Part shown: positions 3,588 through 62,073 of the stretch, one piece after another
Position numbering within the stretch: the stretch's first letter is position 1
Layout of the letters: each line of letters begins with the position of its first letter
NCBI RefSeq assembly: GCF_017916325.1
Contig: NC_090168.1
Coordinates: 1,197,143-1,261,142, forward strand
From: Leishmania martiniquensis
Lineage: Eukaryota > Euglenozoa > Kinetoplastea > Trypanosomatida > Trypanosomatidae
Direction: 5' to 3'
Length of the DNA: 64,000 nucleotides
The notes under the pieces: model-generated
The model's input: only the letters and a program-made list of their open reading frames with translations
The model's database searches: none
Told to the model about the DNA's origin: nothing
Made by a program: the position numbers and the translations under genes

Positions 3588-5279
3588 ATGAGGTGCTCCG
3601 CAGCTTTTCTTTTTTCCGGGACTCCTCCCGGCGCTGCTGGCAACGCCACCGCTCCGCCCCAGCGCTCATCGGTTCTTCCTTTGGCGGTGGCCCGCCAAGA
3701 ACATGAACTCCACAAGGGCAGTGGGAACCGAGGAATGCGTTGGGTGACAGATTGTTCAAACATCGTCGGCAGCAGCGGCCTCAGTCGTGCCCCTCGCCCT
3801 GTCACAGCTCGCCAGCTCTGCCGCGCTATTCTTGGCATGAATCAGCTTAGCGGCGGCGCCTCACTGATCGAAGAGCGCTGCGGCTGCCACGCCACGCAGG
3901 GGACGTCCACCTCTACATTCTCGTCAGCGCCGCCTTCCATGGCGGCTTCGTGTGGAGTAGGCTGCGAAGTGTGTGGTGATGGATATAACTTGCGCGATGC
4001 TGTCAGCGCTGCCCGCGTTGGCGAGAGCACGATCCGTGTGGATGCGGTTGCCTGTCACCGTTTCGTCGTGTGTGGCCGTATTGTGCGCTGCATCGATGCC
4101 TTCTCTAACGGGAGCGTTGCCGCTGCAGCAGGGGCAGCCGTATCTTCCGCTCCATTGACTATGGTGCCGTATGACCTTTTCTGGCTTTCAGACACCACCG
4201 GTGTGGTGTGCGTGCTGCGCCTTCGTCCTGGTCTAGCGCACATCTCCACTTCGCTGTCAGCCTCTAGTTGTCGTTGTGATGGATGGCCTATCGTGCCGGT
4301 GTGCGACTGGCGCACCTCACACACCGCTTCTGCAATGGCGGTATCGCACGCCTTTGCCGCTGCTGACGCCGGAGGGCCTGCGCCTCCTTCCCCGCGCGCC
4401 CCAAGGTGCGCGTTCCTGGCGAATCGAAGCTCATGCTCGCCTACGCCTGAGGGACGACTGTGCTGCACTGGTGTGTGTAATCGAGATGAGGCGCACAAAG
4501 GCATTGAATACGGCGCGAGCGTGGCAGAAGCCATGACAAACATCGGTCTTGCGTGTGAGGACGACTATGCCCTCTGTGTGAACGACTACGCAGTGTGCAT
4601 AGGTACCCTTGCTTTCGCTGACGTCGATGCCCACGTGCGGCATGCTCTACAGCCATACGCCAGTGACATACGCCAAGCTACTTGGGCCGCAGCTACGTCG
4701 TCGTGGTCGTCTGCTCATCTCCTCTCAGCTGGTGCAGGTTCTTGCAGCGGCGTTGATGCGGAGTCAGGCGGCGTGGGCTGTGGTGCATGCGGGGCTAGTA
4801 GAGACACTCCCGTCATCGATGAGGGAGGTGCGGGGGCCAGCGAGCAGCCTAGGTCGGCGCCAGTGCCGCCATCGAGGGAGCAGTTTGTGTTACTTCCTGG
4901 CAGTGAGGTGCCTCTCACGTTAGACGCGGCACGCGGGAAGCTGGGCGTGGTAGGGTCGCTGCCATCGAGCACTCGCTACCTCACTGCTGCTGAAGTGACG
5001 GAATGGGGAGGCACACCTGCCTGTGCAGCCTCCACTGCAACGCTGTTGAGGTCTTCGGCATCGACACGCCACGGCCACGGCGGCGAAGCGAACTCCGCCG
5101 CCGTCATAGATCGCCGATCCTCGACACACGCTTGCGCCGCGACTGACATGAATGAGATACCGCTCGTAAGCATCAAGGGAGGTCTACGCCTTGTCTCAGA
5201 CACGAACGAGTGCATGTTTTGGTGGCTTTCGGCGGTCGAGGCGCACGTGCGATGGAGCAGGCGCGTGCCTGCTCCATGA
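3588..5279 (+). CDS. RPA32/Stn1-like OB-fold protein (candidate)
   Basis: 563 residues from ATG 3588; in-frame alternatives are ATG 3159, 3228 and 3837. Two separated blocks resemble the single OB fold of RPA32/Stn1. Block 1, about residues 140-210, has a helix-like lead (NLRDAVSAARVGESTIRVDA), a strand ending VVCGRIV and a 'YDLFWLSDTTGVV' strand-turn matching the RPA32 'Y.IDD.T' pattern. Block 2 has 'YAVCIGTLAF' (near residue 335; RPA32 'YVKVAGHLRSF') and a C-terminal strand plus helix, 'LRLVSDTNECMFWWLSAVEAH' in two parts: LRLVSDTNE then CMFWWLSAVEAH (RPA32 'IMPLEDMNE...HILEVINAH'). The protein stops soon after this helix, so the winged-helix domain of canonical RPA2 is missing. Low-complexity inserts of over 200 residues separate the strands. 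I infer a ssDNA-binding or protein-docking role in a CST-like or RPA-like complex. The similarity is read by eye and unproven. Confidence 0.6.
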   Translation: MRCSAAFLFSGTPPGAAGNATAPPQRSSVLPLAVARQEHELHKGSGNRGMRWVTDCSNIVGSSGLSRAPRPVTARQLCRAILGMNQLSGGASLIEERCGCHATQGTSTSTFSSAPPSMAASCGVGCEVCGDGYNLRDAVSAARVGESTIRVDAVACHRFVVCGRIVRCIDAFSNGSVAAAAGAAVSSAPLTMVPYDLFWLSDTTGVVCVLRLRPGLAHISTSLSASSCRCDGWPIVPVCDWRTSHTASAMAVSHAFAAADAGGPAPPSPRAPRCAFLANRSSCSPTPEGRLCCTGVCNRDEAHKGIEYGASVAEAMTNIGLACEDDYALCVNDYAVCIGTLAFADVDAHVRHALQPYASDIRQATWAAATSSWSSAHLLSAGAGSCSGVDAESGGVGCGACGASRDTPVIDEGGAGASEQPRSAPVPPSREQFVLLPGSEVPLTLDAARGKLGVVGSLPSSTRYLTAAEVTEWGGTPACAASTATLLRSSASTRHGHGGEANSAAVIDRRSSTHACAATDMNEIPLVSIKGGLRLVSDTNECMFWWLSAVEAHVRWSRRVPAP

Positions 5280-46644: not shown

Positions 46645-49290
46645 ATGCTTAGCAACCGCACTCTCACAGAGGAGCAGACGATTATTCGGCGGCACTTCAC
46701 TGACTTCTTCGAGAGCGAGCGCTTTGAAGAGAAGTACAATGCACGAATTCAGGCCATGATGGTGGCTGGTAAGGCGCGCCTGCTGCTGGACATCGGCGAC
46801 CTACTCGACTACTTCCCTGTCAGCGCAGGCGGAGATGCTCTTGACGGCGTTGGCAGTGGCGGGGCTAGCAACGAGCTGGGGCTCTCGCTGGGGGCCAGCA
46901 TCATTCGCCAACCAGGCAAGTACATCCCTCTTTTAGAGCTGGCGCTTCACGACGTCGTGCTTCGGCAGCAGCCGGAGTACCTCAAGGTCGACTATCGCTC
47001 TCGCATTGTGCATGCCGGCTTCGAGGGCCCGGTTGGTCGCGTTCTGTCACCTCGAGAGCTCTACGCGCGTCACCTTAACACCATGGTTGCTTTAGAGGGC
47101 ATTGTCACGCGGCAGTCGACGAACCGGCCGCGCGTGCTTGAGACGGTGCACTACTGCATCGAGACGAACAAGTTCACCAAGAAAGAGTTCCGTGATCAGC
47201 TCACGCCCATGATCGACAGCGCACATCTGCCCACGGTGAACGTGATGCCCAAAACGGACATTGAGGGCCACGCCCTACGCACAGAGCTGGGCTTGTGCAC
47301 ATTCATGGACTCGCAATGCGCGGTCCTGCAGGAGGCGCCGGAACGCGCACCGACTGGTCAGCTGCCCCGCAACGTCGAGGCGCGCTTCGATGACGACCTC
47401 GTCGATGCCGTGAAGCCGGGCGATCGTGTACTGCTTGTGGGCGTGTACATGCCATACACCACATCAGATAGCAAGAGCTTTCAGTCCATTGTGCTGGTAA
47501 ATCACGTCGTCTCGGCACAGGCCTTCACCTTCCTATCACGTCCCATTCCCTCTGTCGAAGATCGACTGACTCGCTTTGCGCAGAAGTGCCTCGAACAGTT
47601 AGGCCCCAGCGGCGTGATGGAGACGCTGTCCAAGGCGGTTGCCCCTACGATTTACGGTATGGCGACTGCAAAGCAAGCGATCTTGCTGATGATGGTCGGT
47701 GGTGTAGAGCGCCAGTCCCACAACTCCCACGTTCGCGGTGACATCAATATCCTTCTTGTTGGGGAACCGTCGACGGCAAAATCGCAGCTGCTACGCTTCG
47801 TCCTCGGCATTGCACCGCTCGCCCTCAGCACGACGGGCAAGGGCTCCTCCGGTGTCGGGCTGACGGCGGCTGTGGCGACCGATAGCTACACGGGCGAGCG
47901 GTCGCTGAGCGCTGGGGCGATGGTGCTGGCAGACCGTGGCATCCTCTGCATTGACGAGTTCGACAAGATGGGCGCCCAGGACCGGGTAGCAATGCATGAG
48001 GCAATGGAGCAGCAGACAGTCACCATTGCCAAAGCAGGCATCCACGCGTCGCTGAACGCTCGGTGCAGCGTGCTTGCGGCAGCAAATCCCATTTACGGTT
48101 TTTACAGTGTGCACCACCGCTTGTCATTCAACGTCGGGCTGCCCGAGTCGCTGCTCTCCCGTTTCGACTTGACCTTCATCATCCTAGACCAGCACTCCTC
48201 AGACTATAACCGTCGCATTGGCTACCACATTCTGCGCAACCACATGACCTCAGAGGCGGTCCGGTACGACGAGGTCGAGTCACGCACGGTGGTCGACAGT
48301 GTCGAGACAGGCGGGGGCAGTGGAAGCGGCAGCACTGAGCGGGATGGCGGTGATGGACGTCGGAGTGGTCGGGCCGGAGACGGCGAGGGTGGGAGCAGCG
48401 GTCCGAGTCGTCTGGACCTGCGCATGACGACAAACAGTACCGGTGAGCCCATTGTCAGCATCGACTTTTTGCGAACGTTTCTGCAAATGGCGAAACGCGG
48501 GTCGCCGCTGCTCACGGAGGCGTCGCGCGATCTCGTGTGCCAGCATTATGTGCAGCTACGCGCGGAGCAGCAGGATGGCGGGCGCGACGGCTTTTTCATA
48601 ACCCCGCGTACGCTTGACGCCATTGTGCGCTTGTCAACGGCACACGCCAAGCTGCGCCTCTCGCCGACGGTGGAGGAGCCGGACGTCACAGCCGCAATGA
48701 CTCTCTTGCGGGCCTCTGTGAACGCCGCGGCGACGGCGACGCAGCTGCGCCGAGACGATAATCAGCATTCGCTCTCAGAGGCGGCGGGCGGGGCTGCTGG
48801 AGCGGCACCTGCACCTGGTCAGAAGCGTCCAGCCGCCGCGATGGAGGTAGTGGCAGGGCAGCGTGGCGCGAGCAAGGTGGGCACCCTCCTCGGCCATGGT
48901 AGCGAGGCATACGCCGATGGCGATGCGCCGGGTAGTGGCTCTGGTCCGCGGCCGCGTGCCGAGCGGGCTTCCGGCGACGACATTCGCCGAGGTAGTGGTG
49001 AAGCGGCCGCTGCGGTCACGGAAGCCGCGGCTGCAGTCACAAACGGCATCCTCAGAGGGACTCCAAATGCAGGAATCGACGTCAATCTCAACCGGCGCGT
49101 GATTGAAGCCCTCAAGCAGCTGCAGCGCGAGCAGCGAGATGTTGTGTCGCTGGACGAGCTACAAGGGCGCCTCGGTGATGATACGATTTCTATGGCGTCG
49201 CTGAAGCTGTCCGTGACGCAGCTGCAAGGAGATGCCTTTATCTTTGAGAGTACCGAGGACGGCGGCGACAACACCATCCAGTTCATTTAA
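46645..49290 (+). CDS. MCM3: DNA replication licensing factor MCM3
   Basis: 881 residues from ATG 46645. It is one of six subunits of the MCM2-7 helicase ring. The N-terminal domain carries 'VALEGIVTRQSTNRPRVLE' and the MCM3-type 'EAPERAPTGQLPR' with 'DDDLVDAVKPGDRVLLVG' (near 250-275). The AAA+ core shows 'GVERQSHNSHVRGDINILL', Walker A GEPSTAKS (373-380), Walker B ILCIDEFD (433-440), 'HEAMEQQTVTIAKAGI' and the arginine finger SRF at 505-507. 'GVER.....S.VRGDINILL' plus the APAGQLPR-type motif favours MCM3 over the other MCMs. No CxxC zinc pair is visible in the N-terminal domain, as usual for MCM3. A Gly/Ser-rich insert (about 552-590) and a low-complexity segment (about 705-800) precede a C-terminal winged-helix-like end. 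It acts in the nucleus at replication origins. Confidence 0.93.
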   Translation: MLSNRTLTEEQTIIRRHFTDFFESERFEEKYNARIQAMMVAGKARLLLDIGDLLDYFPVSAGGDALDGVGSGGASNELGLSLGASIIRQPGKYIPLLELALHDVVLRQQPEYLKVDYRSRIVHAGFEGPVGRVLSPRELYARHLNTMVALEGIVTRQSTNRPRVLETVHYCIETNKFTKKEFRDQLTPMIDSAHLPTVNVMPKTDIEGHALRTELGLCTFMDSQCAVLQEAPERAPTGQLPRNVEARFDDDLVDAVKPGDRVLLVGVYMPYTTSDSKSFQSIVLVNHVVSAQAFTFLSRPIPSVEDRLTRFAQKCLEQLGPSGVMETLSKAVAPTIYGMATAKQAILLMMVGGVERQSHNSHVRGDINILLVGEPSTAKSQLLRFVLGIAPLALSTTGKGSSGVGLTAAVATDSYTGERSLSAGAMVLADRGILCIDEFDKMGAQDRVAMHEAMEQQTVTIAKAGIHASLNARCSVLAAANPIYGFYSVHHRLSFNVGLPESLLSRFDLTFIILDQHSSDYNRRIGYHILRNHMTSEAVRYDEVESRTVVDSVETGGGSGSGSTERDGGDGRRSGRAGDGEGGSSGPSRLDLRMTTNSTGEPIVSIDFLRTFLQMAKRGSPLLTEASRDLVCQHYVQLRAEQQDGGRDGFFITPRTLDAIVRLSTAHAKLRLSPTVEEPDVTAAMTLLRASVNAAATATQLRRDDNQHSLSEAAGGAAGAAPAPGQKRPAAAMEVVAGQRGASKVGTLLGHGSEAYADGDAPGSGSGPRPRAERASGDDIRRGSGEAAAAVTEAAAAVTNGILRGTPNAGIDVNLNRRVIEALKQLQREQRDVVSLDELQGRLGDDTISMASLKLSVTQLQGDAFIFESTEDGGDNTIQFI

Positions 49291-53660: not shown

Positions 53661-54309
53661 GACGGAGACAGTTACGCGGAAACGCGGCGGGTGCGGGGGA
53701 GACGCTGGAGGCGCTCATCGTCTCGACACGCACAGACTGTTTGTGTAGTGCGATAGTGCCGGGGCACCCGCAGCTGTGGCCGTCTCTCGTACCTCACCGA
53801 CCCCTTCGTGAGACAGGCTGTACCCCTGCGTGGCTTCTCTTCCAGTTTTCTTTGGTCGTATCTCCTCCGAAGAGACCAGCCAAGGGCAAGGGCAGAATGG
53901 AGGTGCGATTCTTGCATCGCAACAGGCCTTTGCGTCTTCCACCTCTCTCCCTCTAGTGTCCCCCTCCCCAACACTGGTATCAGCCCAGGTCGTGGTACAG
54001 GTGCTTGGTCTTGCGGAAAGCGAGTGCGTGCGCGCCCTCTCGACAGGTGCCTCTTCAGCGATGCGGCTCATGACGAAGGGCCCACGTGGGGGACGGTGTG
54101 TGCAGAGGCCTACAAGCGGACGAATGCGCTTTCAGATGCGCTTTGCTGTGCACGTCGGTCCCATCGATGGAACGCGAGGGAAGGCGAGGAGGAACAGAGA
54201 CTGCACCTCTGCGCCGTTTCTCTCTACAACAACGCCTTCCCCCCCTTTCCCCAACACACGTTACCCTTCCTACGGTGGCACTTTGGACTTCACAGCTTGG
54301 TATGGCTTG

Positions 54310-54545
54310 GTATAGGGAGGGGGGGGCATCCGTCATGGGCGAAAAGGTCGTGAGGGGCGATGCACGCCAGTCAGCCACATGGTGCGTGCGCGCAACAGTT
54401 GCAGTGGCTCCTGCGCCTGGCCGGGTGTGCTGGCGAGGCACCGGTGCCGACCGCACGGCGGGTGCAGCCGGGCTCTTCGCTGGCTAGCCCAGCTTCTGGC
54501 GCGGTGGGGTAGACGCTGGCGCACTGGTGGTGGCGTGAGTTTTTC
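54310..54545 (+). repeat. Possible highly diverged relative of the SIDER-like repeat
   Basis: Order of features resembles the middle of the 488-bp repeat: a G run, then ACATGGTGC, then later CACTGGTG-GG-CGTGAG. Sequence between is not alignable by eye. It lies about 650 bases after the KAS stop codon. Weak call. Confidence 0.25.
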
Positions 54546-54891
54546 TGCTGACTTTTTGGCGGCGAAACTGATATTTCACCCAAAGCATATCGCCTCTACT
54601 CCTCATCAAGGTTCTCAATGTTTTCACATCCCCCCTGTGGAACTGAAAGAGGTGCGTACGCGTGCAGGACAGGTTCGGGGACGCATGAGCGGGTGTAAGG
54701 CGTCCTCAGGGCTCCTTTTTTGTGCCTGCTTCGGCACGAACTCTCCCTTTATGACTCTCTCTTGCTCCCGCTCCTTTTGCTCCGCGGTTCGCCGCGTGAT
54801 CAGCTTGCCTACAGCCTCGCCTTGTATACCTCTCACTTGCTCTCCTTCGCTGGCTGCTCCTGCCTCTCTCTCTCTGCATGTTTGTGGGTAA

Positions 54892-54910
54892 ACATATATA
54901 TATATATATG
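54892..54910. repeat. TA microsatellite
   Basis: Short run of TA units in the gene-free region, followed by a GT run near 54942-54958. Confidence 0.85.
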
Positions 54911-57900
54911 CGATTTCATCTCGCTGGAATCGGCACGTGTGCTGTGTGTGTGTGTGTGATTCTGTCATGCGCTGACTCCCTTACATGGCATGCGCGCATG
55001 TGTATTCTTGTGCGTTCCGTACACGGGCTTTCATCGACGCACACTTGCATGTGCATGCACGCATACATATTTGGCCATTAAACAAAAACTAACCACTACG
55101 CATATACGCACTCAACCATTCCCGCTCTTTCCCGAATTTCGCACTCCAAAACATCAGTTAAGCGCACCATAACATTAAAATCTCAGGAGACGCAAAGCTT
55201 TTCACTGCCCCCCTTCCTCTTACCCAACGCCGGCCTTTGTCTCACTTCTCTACCGCCACTTTGGCTCTCTTCTGCACTCTCTCTCCACTTGACGCGGACT
55301 CCCTCGCTCCCCTTCAGTGGGCCGCCTATCATCGGCTTCTCACCTGTGTAGGTCTCTCCCTTCCATCTCCCTCTCCGACCTCATTAATCCGTGCACACTG
55401 GCTCTGGTCACCGGCCCCCCCTCCACTCTCCCTCTTTCTGTTCTTGTCGTCGTTACCGTTGTTCTCGTCCTCCACCCGCCCACCGCATCCTTAGCGTCGG
55501 TGCCGCAACCGGGTATTGCACCGCTTCTGCCGGCGCCGCGGCCCACGCATCGAACTCGTCTCCCTCCCTCCCCCTCTGGGGCCTCCTTAAACCTCTTTCA
55601 CCACTCTAAACTCTTCGTCCCATTCCCACGCTATTGCTTTCCCTTTTCGCCTTCCGTTTCTCTTCGGATCCCCCCGCTCCCCTTTTCCTGTTCTCCCCGT
55701 GCTGCACTTTTCCACAATTTCTTTTTTCCCTTTCTTTTCGCCTACCCTTTCTCCCCTCTTCCATCAGTGGTGGACATTCTCTTTCGTGTCTGATCTATTT
55801 CTTTATTTTTTTCCCCTTCTCCTCCCGACCTGTCTGCCTGCCTCTCTGCCTGTGCGTGGACGATACTCGTCTCTCTGCCGTCGCCACTCCGCCCTCTTGC
55901 CCCACCGTCCCTCTCTGGATCAGGGGAGCCGCCTCTCGACGAGGAGGGAAGGGGCAACAGCTGCACCAGCATCTCTAGCGACGTATCATACGTACGTCGC
56001 CTCGTTTTCAAAGCCCCGTTTCTTTCAATCTCGCTCGTTTCCTCTTTTGTACCGCCCTCTCCCCAAACCATCATCAAACACCCTTCCGCTCCACTCTCCA
56101 GCCCTCTCCCCACCCACACTCACTTCGCCATACACCCCCCTCCCTCCATCACCCATAGGCGCCGCCAGCACTGCCGTAGCCCTTCCCTGTTTTTGATCGT
56201 TCTGCCTGCGAGAAAGAAAGTAGAGAGTCGGTAGCCGCTACCCGCACACGCACACAGCCCCGGTGCCGTCGCTCTGCCTGTCCGTCTCGACCGCCTGTCC
56301 GCCCTTCCTACGAACGTCTCTCTCTCGTTCGGTTGGCTCTTGTCACAGACGCTCGATTCTGACCTGTCTCCTTCTTTCCCCTCTATCGCGTGCCGTTGTC
56401 CTCCGATTGGACGCTACCGAACTTTTATCGTCTTGCTGCACATCCCATAAGGGGGATTGAGCAGAGACGGCTATTACACGCACGTGGAGTGTGCAATCGT
56501 TTTATTTAACTATTTTTTTTCGGTTTGTGGAGGGCACCGTCGCTTCAAATATATTCGTCTCTCCGCTTCTCTTACATCGCTGTCTTTCATAGCACGAGCA
56601 CCAGCAGCCCACTGCACTACTGGCACCGTCACAACAGTGCAGCCGCCCGCGGTGATCATCATTGTCCCCGGTGCGAAGAAGAGAGAGAGAGGAGTGTTTC
56701 GAAACGAAAAAAGGAGAAAGGAGAGAAGGGAAGGTCAATCATATCGGTGTCGTGTGTGTGTGTGCCAGTGAGAGGGGAGGGTCGGTGGACTAAGCGGTGC
56801 GGACTGTTGGCAAACATCTTTTGCTATCTCTTCCTTCCCTCTTCACGCATTGGCTGCATCTCCTCTATCTCTTTCTCTCTCTCTCTCTGACATTTGGATC
56901 TATCATCGTTAGCCGGGCGTGCGTGCTTCTGTTGCTCGTGTTTCTGTATGTAAATATATATTTCGCTTGTGCCTTTCCTGTTGAATCCCTCCGTTGTATT
57001 GTTGCGTGCGGGTACGTGGGTCTGTCATCCACTCAACGATCCTCGTCTTCGACTCGTTGCTCTCTTTGTTCTCGCTGCCCTCCTTGCCAGTGGCCCTTGC
57101 CCCCACTGACGTGTTGCTGCTCATCCGCAAAGGTGGTGCACAGCATTCCTACGGAAAAAAGAAAACGAACGATCGTTTATTTTGGGCTCGTTGGAAGGTG
57201 GGGCAGGAGTAAAGAACACCCCTCCCCCTTCTTTTGTTCGCACATCGCCCACCTAGAAAAGGGCTTGCGAGGGCAAGGAAACTTTAAGAGCGTTGGTCCA
57301 CCAGGCGAGGCAGGCTCTCCCCGTGTTGGAGACGTGAGCACAGCAAGACACCTCACTCACACTTAAACCCGAAGAGAGCGAAATATTGAAGCTTTCGGAA
57401 AGGAGGGGTCAACAGGCTTGTTATTCTTTTTCGTTTCTTTTGCTTTCGGCAAGCATATCCTCTCACTACCCTCAACCATTATCACCACCTATCCGCACGC
57501 TCCACGTCTTCCCCGCGCACGCGGACTGACACCAGCCACACGAGCACCTTCCTCTAGGTTTGCTCGCTCTCTCTGCGTATTCTCTTTCTGTTGTTTCACC
57601 TGCGCAACAAGGAAGACGTCGATCTACCCTTTTTTTTTCTCTTCCCCCCCATACACACACACTCTTCCGTTCTCTATCCCTGTCGACACATCTCTGCTGT
57701 TTGGAAGAGTCTACTTTTTTTTTTATTCTTCTCTTTGCACTTCCAAATCGTTTCCTGCTAATTCCGTATCCTGAGTGTCCAGTGCCTTTGTCGGCGTGTC
57801 TGTGGTAAGACGGAACAGCGAAAACGAGAGCATCGCTGATCTCGGGCAGCGGCTGGAGATCGAGGGCGGGCAGCTTCCACATACGTAGCGCTTCAGGTTG

Positions 57901-60900
57901 CACGGTCTGTGAGCTGGTGCACGTGTGTGCTTCACAAATCCCTCTTGTTCCGTGATTTTTTCTTGCGCCACGTCTGCATTACTGGTGTTTTTTGGAGGTG
58001 TTGCTCAACACTCTCTTTCGTCGTCGTGTGTAGCTCTTTCTCCCTTCCCCTTCTATCTCCTGAACTCTCCTCTTACTCTCGTACCACCGTTCCCCCTTGT
58101 CTTCCTTTGAGTCTATTAGTGTGGCACAGCACCTGCCGTTCGCCCTCCTCCCTGTCCCGAATCGGTGCCGTCTTCTCTCTCTCTCCCTCTTCTTTGCTTG
58201 CCTCTCACCCACGCTCTGTGCCGAAGCTTCTGCTCCTCTGTGGTGTACCACCCCGTGTGCTTGCGCTTCTCGTGTGGTGGAGCATCATACATCAGCGTCA
58301 TTGGTGCACTGTTTTTTTTTTGCACGCACCTATTTTTCTTTTTCCTTTTAGCCATCTCCCTCCCTCCTTCCCTCTCTCTTCTTTGAGCGCCTGATCGTCT
58401 CCCTTCTGATTTCTTTCGTGGCGTCCACTTCTTTCTTTTGTCATTTAGCCTTGGACACTCTCTCCCAAGTCACTGTCTCTCCTATTCCTTCACCTCTCCG
58501 TCTCTCGATTGGCCCCGCCTTTTCTTTCATTTCTCTGCATCCGCTTCTTGGAGCGCTTTCTCTCTCTTCTTTTTCGTTGCATCTCCCCTCCTTCCCTCCC
58601 TCCTCGTCGCTCACGCCCTCGTTTGTCGCTTGCCTATCCGCTTCTTTTCCTGTTCTCCACCCTATCCTTCGTCTCCTCCCCCACTCTCCTCTTACGTTGT
58701 TGTTTATCCCCTTCTTTGTTTCTCCTCTCTGCTTCATACTGTTCTTTTCTTTTTTTCGTCGCTGTTAGCACCCCTTTTGTCTCTCTTCAGCTTTCCTAGC
58801 GTTTGTGTTTCTGTTGTACGTCTTCTCGCCTGTGCGTATACTTGCTAGTTCAGTGGGTGCTCGTGCGTGTCGTTTGTAGTCATCTTTTCACCGTCTCTTC
58901 ACCTTCTGAACAGTCTACGCTTCCTCTCCACTTGTTGTTTCGTGAACTCGCTTCTGCTTTGCCTCTTCGTTACGCCCTCGCTCTTTTCCCTCTGTTGGTA
59001 TAGGACCTCCCTTTCTTTTCCCATTTCGCATTCTGTTCGTTTTTTCTTTTCGTCGCCCGCACGTGTCTTCAGAGCCTCCTTGCCCAGCATCTGGCCTCTG
59101 ATTGCACCGCATCGTATCCCTTCTTTTCCTGTCGCGTAACGTGGTGCTCTTGCATGGTGCCCCTCTGTTGTTTTCAGCTGCTGTCCCTCCCCCTGGTTGT
59201 ATTTTTCGCTTCCTATCCTGTTGTCTTCTCGTGCTTTACGTTCCCTTCTATTTTGTTTTTCGCTTTGACGCCCTTTACCGCCACCACCACCACCGTCTCT
59301 CTACCGCACGCCTTACCCTTTTTTTTAAATATATATACATATATCTCAAACAGTAAGGCGTCTGCTCTTCTCTAGTCGTGCGCTCCTCGTCAATTCGTAG
59401 CGAGAACGCATAGCAGAGTAGAAAAGCGAACAAATCACACGTGCAGAGTGCCTCTTCTTTCTGTTTTGTTTGACAAATCAGCTCCGGTGCACAGCATCGT
59501 CATTCTGGCCAACGCCATCACCTCACAGTCCTTTGCCCATCACTGCCGCAGCAGAGGAGGAGCAAGAATCGCAACAAAGGGCTAACGTCAAGAAGAGGTC
59601 TGAGCCTAGTAAGTGCGCTTCTGTTTACCAGCGCATTCGCAGCCAACCTTGTTTTGCGTTGCTCTTGCCCTCCTCTCTTGTACGGGCACTCGGAAAGGAA
59701 ACAGAGCGAAGGCGTCGCTTCTGCAAGCAAGGTAGGGCGTTCAGATAGCAGCGCAAACACGCGAGCGTTGAGTCAACGCAAACGAACGCCGCAATAATAA
59801 TAAAAGCAGGTATCCGTGGGATCGTGCTGTGCAGTGCCTTCTCACTCCCTCTCTACAGGGGCACACACACATTAACACACACAGACGTACATTTGTACAC
59901 GCACAAGGCGGCAATCGTGGGCAAGTACAAAAGGATACGCTCTCCCGAAACGTGCGTTCATTTCACAAGTGGCCTGAGAAAACGCATATCTGAGTGCGTG
60001 CTTTTGCTTGCGTGTGTGCGTGTGTGCACGCTGCTTCCTCTACATTGGCCACGCCGCTTTTATTCATCATCCCTATCTGCTCTGTCACGTGATAGCCTCG
60101 TGTGCCCACCCTTGACTAATTTTTCTTTTTGGTGTGCGTACGTGAAGCGTGTATCATCTCGACTGTTGCTTCCGTGCTTGGTGCGTGTGCGGGTGGGTGC
60201 CAGCTAAGGTCTCTGCCTGGACTACCCTCTCCCGTTCTCCCGTTCTCCCGCTCTCCCTCTCCCCACTTCAGCAGCGCTTATAGTTTTCTTTCCCTGCTCT
60301 GCCGTGCTTTGGTGTACTCTCTTCGGATTGCCTTCTATCCTTGTGTGAAGTTTTACTTGTCTTTTGTTTTTTTCTTTCGAATCAGAGGTAGTTGCTCGTT
60401 ACCTCTCTATTCCCGCACTTCTCCGTTCTCCCTTTTCTTTTCCTATTTCTCCTTGACTTCTTTCGTTACCCTCACTCTCTCCTCTCCCTCTTCGTTACCC
60501 ATCCCCTTCTCTTCAGGTGCCCTATTGCGTTTGGTACTGACGTTACCCTCCCCACTTAATCCCTTCATCACAGCGGGTCTGTCTGTGTCCGCGCGTGCTT
60601 GCGCGGCTTAGTGCGTGCGTTCTTTCTTATTTTCCTTTTCTGCAGCTTCCGGCTACATTTTATCGTACTGCCACCGTCGCTGCCGCCAAACTCTGCGTTT
60701 CACGCACTATTTTTTCGGCCTTTTCGATCTCCCCCTTCTATCCGCCTCACTTTGTCTTCTTCGCCTCTCTCCACTGCTCTCTTCCTCACACCTTCCTATA
60801 CGGCTTCTGCCCTTGGCCTCATAGTTTTTTTTTGTGGCCTCGCGCGTGACTGTGTGTGTGTGTGTCCTCGTGCACGCGTATCTTTTGCAGTCCGCTTCGT

Positions 60901-61751
60901 ATTGGCTTATTTCTCTGTGGATAGTTTTGTCTTTGTGTGTGTGTATTTGTCTCTTGTTGTCTTTGCGTTAGTGTTATCGTTTCATTATCTCGGTGTGCTC
61001 ACCATTGGCTTTTTTTACACGAACAATAAAACGGCGTTGCGTCCATTTTTTCTCTGCTGTGTGCGTGCGTGTGTGTGCCCGCGACTTCGCCCACTCCCCT
61101 CTCTTCTCCACAAGGGGTTACACTCTGTTTTGCCGTCTCTCTCTCCTCTTGCTGTGTGTGTGTGCGTGTGCGTGTGCGCACAGGGCTCTTTATTCTTCAT
61201 TCTCTTCCCCTCAGCGTCTGTTAATTGCCTGTGAGTACTGCGTGGACTCCACATCGAGGCAAGGAGTCTCTGGTTCACCCCCCACCCACCCCACCACACA
61301 CACACACACACTTGTCCCCTCGCCGCTTTCTCCTCTCAGCACCTCTTTCTCTCTGAGAGGTTCACCTGGCGCGCGCGACGAAGGAAGGCATCGTAAAGAC
61401 ACAGAAGTGTGCTGCGAAAGAGGAATAGAAGGCACAGCTGGGGCTGGTTTGCCGGTGTGTGCGTGTGTGTGTGTGTGCCGACGCTGTTGCCTTTGCCACT
61501 CGCTTTACCCTTTTCTTTCTCCCTTTTGCCCTTTTCGTGAAGTTTCTATTTTTTCTCTTTTTTTCAGTCTTGTCCGTTTGCCGACGCAGAAAATTGGATC
61601 TGCCGGCCTCGCTCTCCCCCTGTCTCTCTTCCTCATTCCTTTTACCGCCTCTGCGCGTCTCCTTCCCTCGTAGCGGAGAGCAAGCAGAAAACGGAACAAC
61701 AACCAAACGGTGGGCGTTCCCAGCAGAGGTGAGGTGGGGCAGTGTAAACGC

Positions 61752-61785
61752 TGGCCGCCGCCGCCGCCGCCGCAGCAGCAGCAGC
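61752..61785 (+). repeat. GCC/GCA trinucleotide repeat in the probable leader of the RRM gene
   Basis: About six GCC units pass into four CAG/GCA units, about 290 bases before ATG 62074, inside a region I consider non-coding. Confidence 0.8.
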
Positions 61786-61952
61786 CATACAAAATCAGAA
61801 CACGCCGAAACAACGAAGACGGCACTGCTTTTTTTTTTTGCTTCTTTTGTTGTTTTCTGGCGATCTCGTCGACTGTTCTTTTGGTAAAGCGGGTGACGAT
61901 CACGAGGCCATTGGAATCGCATCAGTGTGACAGACGCCAGCGCCTCTGCCCG

Positions 61953-61978
61953 CATATATATATATATTTTATATATTT
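61953..61978. repeat. TA-rich microsatellite
   Basis: TA units with a short TTTT interruption, ending in TTTAG (AG at 61979-61980), which could itself act as the acceptor for the next gene. Confidence 0.8.
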
Positions 61979-62073
61979 AGTTCGGTGGATTGAGTGATCT
62001 CGGCCGTCGGTCTTTTGCGCTCCCTTCATTGTTGCATCACCACACACATACGCACGCACGGCGCCCGGTAACG

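Follow-up and report, generated by a model that had tools for sequence, protein, structure and literature searches.

Our analysis of a 64,000-nucleotide stretch of Leishmania martiniquensis DNA (the window, which lies on contig C33 of a 32.3-Mb genome in 41 contigs) uncovered an RPA2-like gene of Leishmania-type parasites that is unannotated so far. Its product is most likely a trypanosomatid duplicate of RPA2, and the sequence comparisons described here make it highly probable that the protein shares homology with the OB domain of RPA2, all the way from its N-terminal motif to its C-terminal helix.

By reading of the frame, the gene corresponds to an ORF at 3588..5279 that begins with the ATG at 3588, ends with the stop codon at 5277-5279, and encodes 563 residues. 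The frame stays open upstream to 3051. Since 11 of the 15 family proteins (the window protein counted) begin with MRC[SAP]A, the remaining four being fragments or starting further in, the ATG at 3588 is favored as the start. The ORF, as originally predicted, is a real gene, as its frame and relatives across its full length attest. We found 14 such relatives (11 plus 3 added), including proteins from Leishmania (P0008 of Leishmania tarentolae among them), Porcisia, Novymonas, and Leptomonas, with 49 to 59% identity to the window protein among those named Leishmania. None of the 14 has an assigned function or domain; the named ones are labeled hypothetical or uncharacterized, and precomputed Pfam domains are present in 0 of 14. 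Conservation in the family sits in six blocks (alignments A1 and A5), between which both sequence and length vary. The features of the gene are as follows.

3588..5279, plus strand: coding sequence of the RPA2-like protein (563 residues), from the ORF and relatives over the full length
3789..3839, plus strand: N-terminal motif APRPVTARQLCRAILGM, residues 68-84, corresponding to RPA2 "RPVTIRQIL", from family conservation
4002..4229, plus strand: residues 139-214, proposed OB strands 1-3, including the D-T-T-G turn and the long loop that links strands 1 and 2, from the RPA2 alignment
4230..4580, plus strand: variable stretch inserted after strand 3 and before strand 4, residues 215-331, with no invariant or near-invariant columns in family alignments
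4581..4628, plus strand: strand 4, NDYAVCIGTLAFADVD, residues 332-347, from family alignments
4875..5012, plus strand: conserved block in the strand 4-5 insertion, VLLPGSEVPLTLDAAR..LG.VG.LP..TRYLTAAE...W, residues 430-475, from conservation
5157..5264, plus strand: strand 5 and C-terminal helix, residues 524-559, corresponding to the RPA2 trimerization helix, from the profile match to Ustilago RPA32

Because ready-made profiles gave no match, with no Pfam scan of the RPA2-like family finding an OB domain, we built our own profile, A6. It combines the conserved blocks of 10 family proteins out of 15, without the inserts and with zero RPA sequences; P0003 to P0007, being close copies or lacking the N terminus, were excluded. 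The set searched comprised 1024 six-frame ORFs (from the window and 12 loci) and four named proteins. The window gene came first, followed by the canonical RPA2 encoded by this genome with an E value of 1.8e-8 (its locus is present twice in the set, as L007 and L008), Ustilago RPA2 (1.2e-4), the next unrelated frame (0.26), and human RPA2 (0.66), while human STN1 and human RMI2 were not among the best 15 matches listed. With the whole alignment A5, in which the inserts are kept, the genome's own RPA2 was again second (5.4e-6), ahead of Ustilago RPA2 (9.8e-4) and the next unrelated frame (0.074); human RPA2, STN1, and RMI2 were not among the best 12 matches listed.

When A6 was compared with 177,635 PDB sequences, Ustilago RPA32 was the top match (E 0.011; next, 0.51). 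This match consists of two stretches, the N-terminal motif and, as its main part, strand 5 with the C-terminal helix. As each stretch is weak alone (E 270 and 1.1, respectively), its weight lies in their order and their sum. The APRPVTARQLCRAILGM motif pairs in profile alignments with the N terminus of Ustilago RPA32 as well as with that of the genome's own RPA2. A single BLASTP comparison of the RPA2-like protein with its own RPA2 gave a weak match (E 0.005).

In hhalign comparisons with 60 shuffles per target, the genome's own RPA2 scored 63, corresponding to a z of 24.8, part of which may reflect composition common to two fast-evolving proteins of the same genome, for which shuffles correct in part only. 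Ustilago RPA2 (z 6.7), human RPA2 (z 3.5), human STN1 (z 1.6), and human RMI2 (z 1.2) followed, all comparison families being single sequences and STN1 and RMI2 being represented by the human protein only. Human RPA2, at a score of 18.8, lay barely above its best shuffle of 18.1. As a yardstick (24 shuffles), the genome's own RPA2 yielded z 26.1 against human RPA2, 6.4 against human STN1, and −1.3 against human RMI2; a family profile scores above single sequences, as in the yardstick, and these z values are not like for like. Human RMI2, to judge by that negative value, is too divergent to serve as a fair probe. Read against the yardstick, the z scores place the RPA2-like family next to trypanosomatid RPA2 and at a distance from the other proteins compared. 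Together with the A6 match, they bear out the original designation of a second RPA2-like OB protein or RPA2 paralogue. The resemblance to RPA32 claimed at the outset is above chance by way of the genome's own RPA2, whereas that to human RPA32 itself turned out to be weak.

The RPA32-like blocks named in the original prediction are all conserved, namely, the turn near "YDLFWLSDTTG", the strand "NDYAVCIGTLAFADVD", and the C-terminal strand-helix "RLVSDTNECMFWWLSAVEAH". With the canonical trypanosomatid RPA2 (G000:C15:110137-110907, 257 residues), the RPA2-like protein shares the RP[LV]TI[KR]Q motif, the order of OB strands, the TG turn, the long strand 1-2 loop, and a C-terminal D-[ST]-NE helix ending in TH-RL; the canonical protein has an RPA_C domain and the RQW tryptophan, whereas the RPA2-like protein lacks both and carries two long insertions. 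At the sequence level, the trimerization helix pattern D-x-NE....L..[AV]..H is present. Over the 19 columns of this helix, the ten A6 members have a mean identity of 49% to their own RPA2 (37 to 58%), compared to 42% between that RPA2 and human RPA2, a gap of about one residue. For the same ten members, identity is 39% in the N-terminal motif and 13 to 33% in the strands. The tryptophan of RQW, which in RPA2 stacks on single-stranded DNA, occurs at the RPA2 spacing from the TG turn in 0 of 13 members, and the aligner places a gap at this position in 10 of 10.

The chain ends 16 residues past WWL, and no RPA_C winged helix is found in the RPA2-like protein, the single match in the genome being the canonical RPA2 on contig C15. 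This agrees with the predicted stop after the helix, and the absence of RPA_C is why we file the protein as an RPA2-derived paralogue and not as canonical RPA2. In P0016, the most distant member, the strand 1-2 loop measures 28 residues; the 12 others measured have 34 to 43. It has 29 residues in the genome's own RPA2, 19 in human RPA2, Ustilago RPA2, and human STN1, and 15 in human RMI2. A figure legend describes an insertion of ten or eleven residues in trypanosomatid RPA2 (PMC5161316), which we infer to be this same loop. Its length fits a duplication within the trypanosomatid lineage, although a low-complexity loop could have arisen twice.

The two insertions vary in length within the family. 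Between the D.TG turn and the DYxVC strand, there are 127 residues in the window protein and 63 to 142 over 13 members; from strand 4 to strand 5, there are 179 and 121 to 181, respectively. The claim of more than 200 low-complexity residues between strands therefore stands with regard to length, but these insertions are only partly of low complexity, since about 45 residues of the second form a conserved block. Its consensus, VLLPGSEVPLTLDAAR.ELG.VG.LP..TRYL[TS]..EA..W, has ten invariant columns across 11 aligned members. A Pfam search with the block gave no match, and a search of the PDB returned one row at chance level (E 1.3). AlphaFold models had a mean pLDDT of 31.7 for the window protein (12 sequences) and 41.5 for P0016 (13 sequences), in both cases a confidence too low to reveal a five-strand barrel, and a structure search with the P0016 model produced no OB-fold match. 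In the P0016 model, ten-residue means of 75 to 88 are reached in the 45-residue block only, while in the model of the window protein the block attains 56 to 66. Possibly, the block is a small independent fold.

That a second RPA2 copy exists alongside the canonical one has been described for C. elegans RPA-4 and is also the case for human RPA4 and Tetrahymena Teb2. These paralogues retain the overall RPA2 layout. At the level of layout, the RPA2-like protein differs from them in its large insertions and its lack of a winged helix.

We consider it probable that the protein is a fast-evolving RPA2 duplicate working in the following manner. Its C-terminal helix would enter a three-helix bundle with RPA1 DBD-C and RPA3, as canonical RPA2 does. 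Profile searches of the genome detected one RPA1 DBD-C, one RPA3, and one RPA_C domain, that of the canonical RPA2; with one profile-detectable copy of each, RPA1 and RPA3 are the sole obvious partners. The outcome would be a second form of RPA, in which contact with DNA via the RPA2-like subunit is weaker or nil and which would lack the winged helix on which repair factors dock. A different docking surface would come from the two long insertions, chiefly from the conserved 45-residue block. The retention of the helix, the loss of the stacking residue and the docking domain, and the gain of a new block together point to a subunit that would assemble with RPA1 and RPA3 and alter what the complex binds.

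The original prediction also proposed a candidate Stn1/CST-type subunit, which the sequence comparisons do not support. On this reading, the protein would be the Stn1-like member of a trypanosomatid CST complex not yet described, acting at telomere ends. STN1 belongs to the same RPA2-type OB fold family, and the genome's own RPA2 somewhat resembles human STN1 (z 6.4). According to a review of T. brucei telomeres from 2023 (PMC10704157), no obvious CST homologues have been identified, and thus a CST subunit might have been overlooked and missing known partners do not decide on STN1. Nonetheless, the similarity of the RPA2-like profile to STN1, of which only the human sequence was compared, is near chance at z 1.6, against 24.8, 6.7, and 3.5 for the three RPA2s, and the tryptophan of STN1 "NCICW", which aligns with that of RPA2 "RQW", is missing in 13 of 13 members. 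STN1 has C-terminal winged helices, for which the chain of the RPA2-like protein leaves no room after WWL. A search of the genome for the Stn1 family was empty, a result of little weight given that the search matched none of its controls, and one for Ten1 returned a single sub-threshold stretch (E 0.22) with an internal stop. On balance, we regard a Stn1-like subunit as improbable. The RPA2-like protein may still have a telomere role, since a second RPA2 could perform CST-like work. An extended scenario, which we judge unlikely, is that trypanosomatids, having no recognized CST, made a stand-in from a duplicated RPA2, i.e., a telomere- or fork-specific RPA with RPA1 and RPA3 whose extra block would recruit a partner, for example, a polymerase like PolIE or PPL2.

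Human RMI2, a single OB unit that ends after its C-terminal helix, has this layout in common with the RPA2-like protein and carries a leucine where RPA2 has the RQW tryptophan, and the genome has two RMI1_N matches, all of which would suit the missing RMI2 of a TOP3-RMI1 dissolvasome. We hold this reading to be quite improbable: similarity to human RMI2, the only sequence compared, is near chance at z 1.2, albeit with a single probe so insensitive that the genome's own RPA2 reaches just −1.3 with it, and a genome search with the RMI2 Pfam family PF16100 was empty, with one match, under the cutoff, among its 14 controls. RMI2 depends on the OB2 domain of RMI1; against human OB2, the C-terminal region of the RMI1 encoded on C25 scored at chance level (z 1.3, in a single-sequence comparison). 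By eye, the C-terminal "LTVDLGHAWLRQLVG" of this RMI1_N protein (G000:C25:741740-742261; L011:757-2226, minus strand) resembles "LDVDFVDEILTSLIG" of human RMI1 OB2; T. brucei RMI1 has been said to apparently lack OB2. The start of the RPA2-like protein raises a different scenario, an RPA2-derived mitochondrial protein acting on kinetoplast DNA. In 11 of the 15 proteins, the short M-R-C-[SAP]-A start is followed by hydrophobic residues, with a stretch of low conservation between it and the core, and such short N termini can be import signals in trypanosomatids. However, RPA1 and RPA3 are nuclear, and a mitochondrial location would therefore leave the protein without these partners, which makes such a role improbable in our view.

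If a second RPA2 is indeed present, Leishmania RPA studies may blend two complexes. Among the results concerned would be the binding of telomeric single strands reported for Leishmania RPA1 (PMC10704157). The RPA2-like protein furthermore offers a taggable candidate for CST work in these parasites.

Elsewhere in the window, a gene at 46645-49290, named from its sequence as an MCM3-like helicase, is transcribed in the same direction as the RPA2-like gene, and we saw no link between the two. Across the window, a tRNA search with bacterial settings found nothing, no Rfam family reached its gathering score, and no tandem repeat scored 100 or more. The region 53661-61989, about 8.3 kb, is without an ORF of at least 250 residues and has a strong strand bias, with an AT skew of −0.65 at 58-59 kb and −0.60 at 60-61 kb.
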